Assembly: GCA_007695015.1 (NCBI GenBank)
Contig: REEN01000044.1
Span: 62,001-126,000, forward strand
Direction of reading: 5' to 3'
Length of the DNA stretch: 64,000 bases
DNA from: Marinilabiliales bacterium
Lineage (GTDB): Bacteria; Bacteroidota; Bacteroidia; Bacteroidales; PUMT01
This document shows, one piece after another, positions 32,980 through 36,395 of this stretch (position 1 is its first letter; each line of letters begins with the position of its first letter). The notes under the pieces were generated by a model. That model was not told the DNA's origin, searched no databases, and worked only from the letters and a program-made list of their open reading frames with translations. The position numbers were made by a program, and so were the translations under genes.

Positions 32980-33927
32980 TCAGTGCCTTTTGGATATGAA
33001 GTATTTGACTCTCTGGTAAGTGGAAACGTGCCTGTTCACCTTCTTTTCATAGAGGTCTTTCATGGTTATCATTATACCGGTTTCTTCAACGCCTCCAAAG
33101 TTTTCATTTATTACTGTCCCGAATACCTTCATTGACGGGGAGAGGTTCATGTATGCATTTATAAGGGGAGGAATGACCTCGGAATGACTTCTCACATACT
33201 GGGAGAGTTTTTTATAATCTTCTGCATAATCCTTACCGTTCAATAACCTTTCCAGCGCTGCAATATCCATGTTGAGATCCAGGGGATCTTTGGGCCTTAC
33301 AAGTTCATCCTGGTCGGGGAAGTATTTTTGCAGGAAAAAGAGTATCAGGTTTCTTGCTTCCTGGTTAAAACGGCGATACATGGTTACCTTGCCGAAAAAA
33401 TATTTCATTTTTGGATTATCAACCATAATTGCACCAAGCCCGTCCCACAGGTTATCAAGTGCAAAAAGCCCTTTTCTTGCCCTGGCAGTGGACTGGTAAG
33501 CGGGTTGTACAAATGACCGGCCAAGCTCTATAAGGTATGGAAGATAGTTTGATACAAACCTGTCGGAAAACCTGAAGAGCCTGGAGGTAGCAAATCTTTC
33601 GCTGTTCACCGGCTTGTCAGCCGGAGGAATGTAGAACCTGTATCCACCGAGTATTTCCCTGTGTTTTGGGTCCCACACGATCAATTGCTTGTAAGGCTCA
33701 TCAGAGGTGTCAAAATCATCAAGGTCTGTTTTTTTGCCTGTACCACCTCCGGCCCGCCTGAAGCTCAATTCCCTCAGCCTGCCAATTTCGGTCAGAATGT
33801 TGGGCGAATCGATATGATCGACTATATACAGTTCGTTACCCGCATTGTTTGTTTCCCTCACGAACTTCGAAGGAGTCAACTCCTGCTCGATCTTTTCGGG
33901 ACTTACCGGAGATATGATAGGTTCCAT
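32980..33927 (-). CDS. glsB: GNAT-type N-acyltransferase, GlsB/OlsB-like
   Basis: Likely transfers a 3-hydroxy fatty acyl chain to glycine (GlsB) or a related amino acid, the first step of aminolipid synthesis. The 315-residue protein fits the Acetyltransf_5 family: LRELSFRRAGGGTGKKTDLDDFDT, the IVWDPKHREILGGYRFYIPP strand pair, LIELGRSFVQPAYQ with the Glu-x-x-Arg element, and KYFFGKVTMYRRFNQ. It lies 124 bp behind the PlsC-like gene on the same strand; together the two match the glsB/glsA pair known from Bacteroides. The amino acid used is inferred from that match. Confidence 0.75.
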   Translation of the reverse strand: MEPIISPVSPEKIEQELTPSKFVRETNNAGNELYIVDHIDSPNILTEIGRLRELSFRRAGGGTGKKTDLDDFDTSDEPYKQLIVWDPKHREILGGYRFYIPPADKPVNSERFATSRLFRFSDRFVSNYLPYLIELGRSFVQPAYQSTARARKGLFALDNLWDGLGAIMVDNPKMKYFFGKVTMYRRFNQEARNLILFFLQKYFPDQDELVRPKDPLDLNMDIAALERLLNGKDYAEDYKKLSQYVRSHSEVIPPLINAYMNLSPSMKVFGTVINENFGGVEETGIMITMKDLYEKKVNRHVSTYQRVKYFISKRH

Positions 33928-34051
33928 ATAAGAAACAAAGGTTAGAATTATCCCGGCTTTTTAGTAAACCAAAAAAAATGCCTGCACCGGACTGCTAAAA
34001 TAATACTTTTTTCGAACGCTTGCTGCAAAACATTCGAATAATTTATACCGG

Positions 34052-34888
34052 TCAACCCTCTGCAAGCCGATAGACCTCTTTTCTTACTTCCCCCGCCCAC
34101 TCCGCACGAGACCTGGATTTATCAAATCTTTCCCATGGTATCGGGTTGCCAATTGTAACAGTTATTTTATGGCCGGTTTGACTGAACATTTCGTCAGGAA
34201 GGTAGAACATTTCGATGTTAGCCCTGATACCCAGTTTTTTGCGTATGTTGGCAAGACGGTAAAAGAATTTTGAATTTTTACCTTCAAAGTGGACCGGTAC
34301 AATATCGCGCTTATGATCAATGGCCTTTTTTATGAAGTTCCTTTTCCATTCGAGGTCGGTTATAATCCTGCCCTGCTTTCTTGAGCAGATCCCTGCCGGG
34401 AAATACAGTACCTGGTAATCAGATCTGTACAGCTCTTCAATTTTTTTTGCGTATTCGGTTGACTGGCGTCCGTGTTTGTTTACAGGCACGAATACCGGTT
34501 CAAGATTTCGCAGGTTAAGAAGCAGGTCATTGACTATGAATTTGACCTTTTTATGGTGTTTTCCTATTATGTCGAGGAATATCATTCCGTCAAGTCCCCC
34601 GAGCGGGTGGTTGGAAACAAAAATGTTTCTTCCGCTCCGCGGGATGTTCTCCTCTCCCCTTACATCATAATCTATGCCCATGCGTTCAAAGATAACCCTT
34701 ATGAAATCAAGGCCGTATTTATCTTTGTGGGTTTCCAGGATCTCATTTATCTGATCCTGATGTATTGTACGTTTGATATATCCAAGTATAAAACCCGGAA
34801 GTAATTTGTAAAGTCGCGGGTTCTTGTTCCTGAAGATCTCGTCAACATCAATTCTGACCGGCTCCGGTACTTTTTGCTCTTCTGTCAT
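34052..34888 (-). CDS. glsA: PlsC-like acyltransferase, GlsA-like
   Basis: Membrane-associated acyltransferase that would O-acylate the product of the neighbouring N-acyltransferase. The 278-residue protein has the acyltransferase core: the His-Asp block in SNHPLGGLDGMI, FVPVNKHGRQS, the YFPAGICSRKQGRI block in place of the usual FPEGTRS, and a later IVPVHFEGKNS. A short hydrophobic region around YKLLPGFILGYI may contact the membrane. A pure 1-acylglycerol-phosphate acyltransferase role is the alternative. It is divergent from mraZ, with 139 bp between. Confidence 0.72.
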   Translation of the reverse strand: MTEEQKVPEPVRIDVDEIFRNKNPRLYKLLPGFILGYIKRTIHQDQINEILETHKDKYGLDFIRVIFERMGIDYDVRGEENIPRSGRNIFVSNHPLGGLDGMIFLDIIGKHHKKVKFIVNDLLLNLRNLEPVFVPVNKHGRQSTEYAKKIEELYRSDYQVLYFPAGICSRKQGRIITDLEWKRNFIKKAIDHKRDIVPVHFEGKNSKFFYRLANIRKKLGIRANIEMFYLPDEMFSQTGHKITVTIGNPIPWERFDKSRSRAEWAGEVRKEVYRLAEG

Positions 34889-34931: not shown

Positions 34932-34950
34932 TTGATAAAAAAGTTATCAA
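34932..34950. promoter_or_regulatory. 7-bp inverted repeat beside the MraZ boxes
   Basis: TTGATAA (34932-34938) and TTATCAA (34944-34950) form a 7-bp dyad over AAAAG, immediately left of the first MraZ box. It lies in the divergent space between glsA and mraZ and could affect either gene. Confidence 0.35.
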
Positions 34951-34955
34951 CAAAG

Positions 34956-34990
34956 TGGCGAAAAATGGAGTAAAGTGGGTTAAAGTGGAT
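34956..34990 (+). promoter_or_regulatory. MraZ operator: four TGG boxes at 10-bp spacing
   Basis: Boxes TGGCG (34956), TGGAG (34966), TGGGT (34976) and TGGAT (34986) each start exactly 10 bp apart, separated by A-rich 5-mers (AAAAA or TAAAG). MraZ is known to bind TGGGN direct repeats with 5-bp spacers upstream of its own gene. This array lies 38-72 bp before the mraZ start and should mediate autoregulation of the whole dcw cluster. Confidence 0.85.
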
Positions 34991-35027
34991 ATTTTTTGTT
35001 TATTTTTACCTATTCAAAGCAATTTGT

Positions 35028-35489
35028 ATGGCAACTTTCATTGGCGATTATACTTGCAGAGTCGATGCAAAGGGCAGGGTGATAATGCCTTCAGCCTTTA
35101 AGAAACAAATGCCTCCTGCGGCCACTGACAGGTTTGTGGTCAAAAAAGATGTATTTGAGCAATGTCTTGTATTGTTTCCAATTGATGAGTGGGACCGGCA
35201 AAACTCGATAATTCGTTCTAAAATAAATCCCTACAACAGGGAGCACAGCCAATTTCTGAGGGGTTTCTACAAAGGCACTGCTGAGGTAATACTTGATGCC
35301 AGCAACAGGTTGCTTATACCGAGAAGGCTTCTGGACCTGGTAGAGATTGAGGGCGAAGCTGTGCTTGCCGGACAGGACGGCAAGATAGAGATCTGGAGCA
35401 AGGACCTTTATGCTAAACAGGCGGGTGAGGCTGAGGATTTTGCCGTGCTTGCAGAAAAAATTATGGGTGAATCTGAAAGTAGTGCATAA
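35028..35489 (+). CDS. mraZ: Transcriptional regulator MraZ
   Basis: DNA-binding autorepressor of the division cluster. The 153-residue protein has the two AbrB-like swapped-hairpin repeats, the first in FIGDYTCRVDAKGRVIMPSAFKKQM and the second in KGTAEVILDASNRLLIPRRLLDLVEIEGEAVLAGQDGKIEIWSKDLY. The order dcw-first and the four-box operator upstream both agree. rsmH follows 3 bp later. Confidence 0.96.
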   Translation: MATFIGDYTCRVDAKGRVIMPSAFKKQMPPAATDRFVVKKDVFEQCLVLFPIDEWDRQNSIIRSKINPYNREHSQFLRGFYKGTAEVILDASNRLLIPRRLLDLVEIEGEAVLAGQDGKIEIWSKDLYAKQAGEAEDFAVLAEKIMGESESSA

Positions 35490-35492
35490 GCC

Positions 35493-36395
35493 ATGGTTTA
35501 CCATAAACCTGTTCTTCTGAAAGAGAGCGTTGACGGACTCAATATCCGTCAGGGAGGCACTTATGTTGATCTTACTTTCGGCGGTGGCGGACATTCAAGG
35601 GAAATTCTCTCACGTCTGGGCAAAGGCAGGCTGATCTCCTTCGATCAGGACGCCGATGCCGAGGAGGCTTCGCGAAAGATTACCGACAGCCGGTTTATGT
35701 TTGTCAGGAGCAACTTCAGGTTTTTCAGTAATTTTTTGCGGTATTACAAGATAAACATGGTTGACGGCATACTGGCCGACCTTGGCGTTTCCTCCCACCA
35801 TCTGGATGATCCCGAAAGGGGTTTTTCATTCAGGTCAGGCAACAGGCCCGATATGCGTATGAACCGGGATGCCCGGGTTACGGCTGCTGATATCCTGAAT
35901 GAATATAACCAGGATGAGATCGAAAGGATCCTGAGGGATTACGGAGAAGTTCCGGGAGCTGACAGGGTAGCCCGGGCAATTGTTCAGAACCGCGAAGATA
36001 ATAAGTATTCGGATATGGAAAGCCTGATCGGGGTAGTCTCGGGTTTTGCCCCGCAACGCCAGGAGAGCAAATACCTTGCAAGGATCTTCCAGGCACTCAG
36101 GATAGAGGTTAACAATGAACTGGAGGTGCTCCGGCAGATGCTTCTACAGGTGCTTCTCAGTTTAAACAGTGGTGGCAGGCTGGTTGTGATATCCTACCAT
36201 TCACTGGAGGACAGGATGGTGAAAAACTTCATGCGCACCGGAAAGCCGGAAGGCAGCCTTGACAAGGATTTTTTCGGTAATCCCCTGGTGCCTTTCAGAC
36301 TTGTAACAAGAAAAGTCATAGTTGCAGGTGATGCTGAGATCAGGTCCAACAGCCGTGCAAGGAGTGCGCGCCTGAGAATTGCCGAACGCAATTAA
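35493..36395 (+). CDS. rsmH: 16S rRNA (cytosine-1402-N4)-methyltransferase RsmH
   Basis: SAM-dependent methylation of C1402 in the ribosomal decoding site. The 300-residue enzyme shows the opening HKPVLLKESVDGLNIRQGG, the SAM-binding YVDLTFGGGGHSREIL, DGILADLGVSSHHLDDPERGFSF, and the late ISYHSLEDRMVKNFM motif. It is the second gene of the cluster. The ftsL ATG follows its stop with one base between. Confidence 0.97.
   Translation: MVYHKPVLLKESVDGLNIRQGGTYVDLTFGGGGHSREILSRLGKGRLISFDQDADAEEASRKITDSRFMFVRSNFRFFSNFLRYYKINMVDGILADLGVSSHHLDDPERGFSFRSGNRPDMRMNRDARVTAADILNEYNQDEIERILRDYGEVPGADRVARAIVQNREDNKYSDMESLIGVVSGFAPQRQESKYLARIFQALRIEVNNELEVLRQMLLQVLLSLNSGGRLVVISYHSLEDRMVKNFMRTGKPEGSLDKDFFGNPLVPFRLVTRKVIVAGDAEIRSNSRARSARLRIAERN

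Follow-up and report, generated by a model that had tools for sequence, protein, structure and literature searches.

What controls transcription of the division and cell-wall (dcw) operon in a member of the Marinilabiliales, and could that control be linked to DNA replication? The coordination of replication with division is an open question, and the 139-bp intergenic region before mraZ may hold a direct link between the two. In what follows, the window is the whole stretch of 64,000 nucleotides that was analysed. The features that bear on the question are given below by position and strand.

34052-34888, minus strand: glsA, the divergent neighbour, a lyso-glycine lipid O-acyltransferase gene whose control by the mraZ-side elements is unsupported
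34932-34950, no strand: 7-bp dyad TTGATAA/TTATCAA, with arms at 34932-34938 and 34944-34950
34940-34952, plus strand: conserved block AAAGTTATCAACA, whose core TTATCAACA (34944-34952) is a putative A-type DnaA box
34952-34961, plus strand: MraZ box 1, AAAGTGGCGA, TGG at 34956
34962-34971, plus strand: MraZ box 2, AAAATGGAGT, TGG at 34966
34972-34981, plus strand: MraZ box 3, AAAGTGGGTT, TGG at 34976
34982-34991, plus strand: MraZ box 4, AAAGTGGATA, TGG at 34986, overlapping the expected -33 element of a predicted promoter
35001-35008, plus strand: putative Bacteroidota-type -7 element TATTTTTA (TAnnTTTG-like), placed by its spacing from the last TGG
35028-35489, plus strand: mraZ, 153 aa, first gene of the dcw operon, matching NCBIfam MraZ models and solved MraZ structures
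35493-36395, plus strand: rsmH (mraW), the second gene, TIGR00006 with E 3e-92

A first-pass annotation of this DNA had proposed MraZ boxes before mraZ, and the gene adjacent to the operator is indeed a true mraZ with conserved residues. Its product matches the NCBIfam MraZ models with an E value of 5e-37, the Lys15-Gly16-Arg17 motif is invariant, and the gene is followed by rsmH and then the remaining dcw genes. The four TGG motifs begin at 34956, 34966, 34976 and 34986, which confirms the exact 10-bp period that had been noticed, and they lie 40-70 bp 5' of mraZ as four copies of the repeat unit AAAGTGGNNN. When all spacings from 6 to 15 bp are scanned on either strand, this is the sole four-TGG run in the window. 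Dinucleotide shuffles of the intergenic region (n = 20,000) produced three phased TGG in 0.01% of cases and four in none. Counting the array itself, the 3.4-Mb genome has two four-TGG matches; the second, on contig C17, was rejected since it sits within unrelated coding sequence.

Alignment of mraZ upstream regions from relatives, which had been suggested as a check, finds phased arrays in the same place. The sample of 209 regions consists of 79 close-Bacteroidales loci, about 130 loci from across the class and the window itself. Of these regions, 169 have three or more TGG spaced 10 bp apart, compared with 0 of 4,180 mononucleotide shuffles of the same sequences. Averaged over 619 boxes, the site reads AAA(A/T)GTGG followed by three weakly conserved bases, and the additional information lies on the 5' side of TGG, as AAAG. 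The fourth base of TGGGN had been described as free, which agrees with the presence of G directly 3' of TGG in 34% of boxes. The proposal of a Bacteroidota-type box with TGG followed by purines has to be given up, as T is the commonest base at that position (39%, with A at 24%) and the site has a known form, AAAGTG[T/G].

That form is the Mollicutes MraZ box, given as direct repeats of AAAGTG[T/G] before mraZ by Fisunov et al. 2016 as cited in PMC8475190. It is exact in boxes 1, 3 and 4 of the window, while box 2 reads AAAATGG. The two systems share the AAAGTGG core, the direct repeats and the position before mraZ; they differ in that the fourth box here lies at the -33 position of a Bacteroidota promoter and is part of an array adjoined by a DnaA-like box. 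In E. coli (sequence L243), the boxes are CAGTGGG, TTGTGGG and AAAGTGGG, in the stretch AGTGGGAAATTGTGGGGCAAAGTGGG. They resemble the present array in their 10-bp period, TGG core and similar 5' side, but there are three of them near the start codon, the G at the fourth base is kept and no DnaA-like box adjoins them. The E. coli boxes, reportedly described by Eraso and colleagues in 2014 as TGGGN with 5-bp spacers, lie downstream of the Pmra promoter. TGGGN is not the form of every box in the window, where TGGG appears in box 3 only, a mismatch that marks a site variant and says nothing on MraZ binding. Since AAAGTG[T/G] is already defined for Mollicutes and the E. coli boxes are close to it, no new box type is required. 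The MraZ operator here is an ordinary example of a site type already known, and homology makes it near certain that MraZ would bind the array.

The position of the array relative to the promoter can be approached through the Bacteroidota -7 element, which has the consensus TAnnTTTG. In 146 of 172 arrays, TAnnTT begins 13-15 bp past the start of the last TGG, and in the window the mraZ transcription start would accordingly fall at about 35012. If TAnnTT serves as the -7 element, the last box lies over the -33 region, and MraZ binding would therefore exclude polymerase. Most of the 20 mraZ promoters taken from other classes of the phylum (L404-L423) have phased or near-phased TGG boxes. TTGAC-like -35 sequences are often seen 5' of the MraZ boxes in these other classes, which suggests the same layout there as in E. 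coli, with boxes 3' of the promoter. A move of the array from that downstream position to the -33 region may thus have taken place in Bacteroidia.

While the MraZ boxes themselves are ordinary, the new part of this locus is a conserved DnaA-like box held in register with them. In close relatives the block is near-invariant, as AAAGTTWTYAACA, a sequence found in the 3.4-Mb genome as a single copy at the mraZ promoter. The more general form TTWTYAACA, referred to here as A-type, is present by the array in 79 of 79 close relatives. Of 196 arrays overall, 155 have it no farther than 60 bp 5' of the first box, whereas shuffling would give 0.6. The block mostly starts 32/33 or 42-45 bp 5' of the last TGG, varying with the number of boxes kept, and this distance modulo 10 equals 2 or 3 in 118 of 142 cases. 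The block is thus locked to the MraZ array in a fixed helical phase. Within the phylum sample, the DnaA-like box is seen only in class Bacteroidia; TTWTNMACA adjoining MraZ boxes was found in none of the 20 mraZ promoters from the other classes.

The block is likely to be a DnaA box. The published consensus is TT(T/A)T(C/T)(C/A)ACA in Acholeplasma and TT(T/A)TC(C/A)ACA in other Mollicutes (PMC3322544). All forms of TTWTYAACA fall within the former, and the window's TTATCAACA falls within both. The Mollicutes boxes are located at oriC/dnaA, whereas the DnaA-like boxes of Bacteroidia described here are at dcw and nearly always have A at position 6. Position 6 is also the sole difference between the A-type form and the E. 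coli-type box TTWTNCACA, which the window's core does not match on account of its A, and it is where A-type boxes mismatch the E. coli sequence TTATNCACA.

The block might instead bind some other conserved regulator, or act in the mraZ promoter as an UP-like element. Its single copy, its AT-rich flank and the invariant A-tract AAAG immediately 5' of it would all suit such a role. This reading is unlikely, since the block fits the published DnaA-box consensus and since canonical DnaA boxes take its place in other families. In block-less genomes, canonical TTTTCCACA or the reverse TGTGGAWAA is often found about 75-93 bp 5' of the mraZ start codon. TTTTCCACA occurs in the forward direction at L093, L158, L160, L168 and L194, and TGTGGAWAA occurs 80-93 bp before the start codon at L096, L112, L161, L164, L169, L173, L174, L186, L217, L228, L230, L237 and L242. 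Matches to TGTGGAWAA number 17 in 47 block-less regions, compared with 0-7 for its one-base variants. The region upstream of mraZ at L237 (genome G076) is unusually dense, with four canonical DnaA boxes in 200 bp.

A further point against another regulator or UP-like element comes from tandem copies of the A-type box elsewhere. Tandem GTTWTYAACA pairs, mostly intergenic, number 30 listed in 119 genomes compared with 1 for the reversed control, and DnaA carries Ala435 or Lys432 in each of the 18 typed genomes with such pairs. In A-type genomes, pairs are situated upstream of or beside gyrB (L338, L349, L350), dnaG (L342), mutL (L330, L331) and rsgA (L337, L351), and some of the locations recur within one family only. 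Tandem boxes at replication-linked genes form the pattern that would be expected of DnaA. The reverse search, for canonical tandem pairs, returned 5 genomes only, of which one encodes an Ala435 DnaA, a number too small to carry weight.

The type of box also follows the recognition helix of DnaA, whose residues 433-435 reportedly touch the box in 1J1V, an E. coli complex of DnaA with DNA. Genomes with Ala435 DnaA (KDHA or RDHA) are A-type in 48 cases and C-type in 1, while those with Ser/Thr435 are A-type in 1 case and C-type in 19. The helix GGRDH(S/T)TV, which has the same form in E. coli and B. subtilis, accounts for 19 C-type genomes and 0 A-type genomes, and the lone Ser435 genome with an A-type box (G021) has KDHS. 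In 10 typed genomes, neither box type was recognisable in the 130 bp searched. The Fisher p value for the association is 8e-15, which overstates the evidence since only about two changes have occurred on the DnaA tree. The agreement could arise from shared ancestry alone, and an independent-pairs test, with one or two usable pairs, was not significant.

Alternatively, the locus could be a plain MraZ operator in which the AAAGTTWTYAACA block is an extra MraZ contact, as an inverted or degenerate box, and no second protein takes part. The fixed phase between block and array would be natural for such a contact, and the TGTGGAWAA of C-type genomes resembles an MraZ box. Nevertheless, the common form in reverse is TGTTGATAA, which does not have the otherwise conserved TGG, and the block is found in both orientations. 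An extra contact for MraZ is also hard to reconcile with a block whose type tracks the DnaA helix, which has tandem copies at gyrB, dnaG and mutL (in a search for the A-type pair pattern only and not for MraZ boxes), and which is absent from E. coli and the 20 mraZ promoters of the other classes. Together these points make the explanation improbable.

It is very improbable that the dyad or block belongs to a divergent glsA promoter, with one region serving both glsA and dcw as had been supposed. In its favor, 67 of the 79 close relatives have glsA divergent to mraZ. Against it, the gap to glsA can be as short as 136 bp or as long as about 600 bp, with the element at a fixed distance from mraZ; the left arm of the dyad is unconserved; and the block is kept at L017, L018, L022 and L044, loci without a detected glsA. 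The dyad is present in the window as first described, but it is not conserved as such: relatives do not keep the left arm (34932-34938), and the right arm that they do keep lies inside the DnaA-like block. As a joint glsA operator, the dyad was rejected for its unconserved left arm and the variable glsA distance. Beyond glsA lies glsB, and the glsB-glsA pair for glycine lipid synthesis occupies 32980-34888 of the window, divergent to dcw.

The favored reading is that the MraZ array autorepresses dcw and that the adjacent DnaA box ties dcw transcription to the state of replication initiation, to which we assign a probability of about 0.72. An MraZ oligomer would lie along one face of the DNA, bound to the four AAAGTGGNNN boxes that recur with each helical turn. 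With the last box covering the -33 region, MraZ would block RNA polymerase and bring about autorepression of mraZ-rsmH-fts-mur. Directly 5' of the array and in fixed helical phase with it, the single box TTATCAACA would position DnaA to contact, most likely, the MraZ array or the polymerase, and that contact could link dcw transcription to the replication-initiation state. The boxes with their phase and conservation, their promoter-proximal layout, and the match of box type to helix were all obtained by computation; from them we infer binding by MraZ and by DnaA and joint regulation by the two, with a DnaA effect that may be either activation or repression.

There are roughly even odds that the same holds across class Bacteroidia as a composite operator for the whole division and cell-wall operon. 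DnaA would sit in helical register with the MraZ array, most lineages would pair KDHA with TTWTYAACA, replication initiation would be coupled directly to cytokinesis, and helix and box types would have changed together within the class. DnaA boxes at division-gene promoters are known from C. crescentus ftsZ and B. subtilis ftsL (reviewed in PMC8203912). The likeness to those cases is the presence of replication-initiator sites, putative ones here, at a division-gene promoter; the difference is that here a single class-conserved site stands in register with an MraZ array before the whole dcw operon. A class-wide site before all dcw genes would offer a short, defined target for testing the coupling of replication to division in tractable Bacteroidota.

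For much of the group, the predicted DnaA box is TTWTYAACA and not TTATCCACA, and the A-type box would aid in finding origins that might escape a search for canonical boxes. In Bacteroidetes, origins commonly lie far from dnaA (PMC4755523). In the relatives, no cluster of DnaA boxes was found 5' of dnaA (12 observed, 4.9 expected), and canonical TTWTCCACA showed no clusters in the window's own genome. Both results count against the DnaA reading. Locating oriC by such clusters was ruled out, as the 60 sites are scattered and fall below the 79 of the reversed control. Located 5' of dnaA in this genome, a segment of about 150 bp (L245:7002-7156) contains three TTWTYAACA sites together with one TTTTCCACA, a grouping that the relatives do not share. 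The genome's one tandem A-type pair is at L334, near a contig end and with several near-matches adjoining it. This intergenic segment (L334:1490-1660, near the end of contig C92) holds TGTTAATAAC, TGTTGATAAC and TGTTGACAAC together with more A-type near-matches, and it is a candidate for oriC or another DnaA-bound region.

Two further observations concern tandem A-type boxes in other genomes. They recur by transketolase genes at L343, L346, L347, L348 and L353, and in three of these the pair lies in the ychF/transketolase intergenic region. In genome G067, an identical 29-bp double A-type box, TGTTGATAACCCATGTTTTTGTTAATAAC, is carried on five contigs (L345, L354, L355, L356 and L357), at or near contig ends, and is therefore part of a repeated element.
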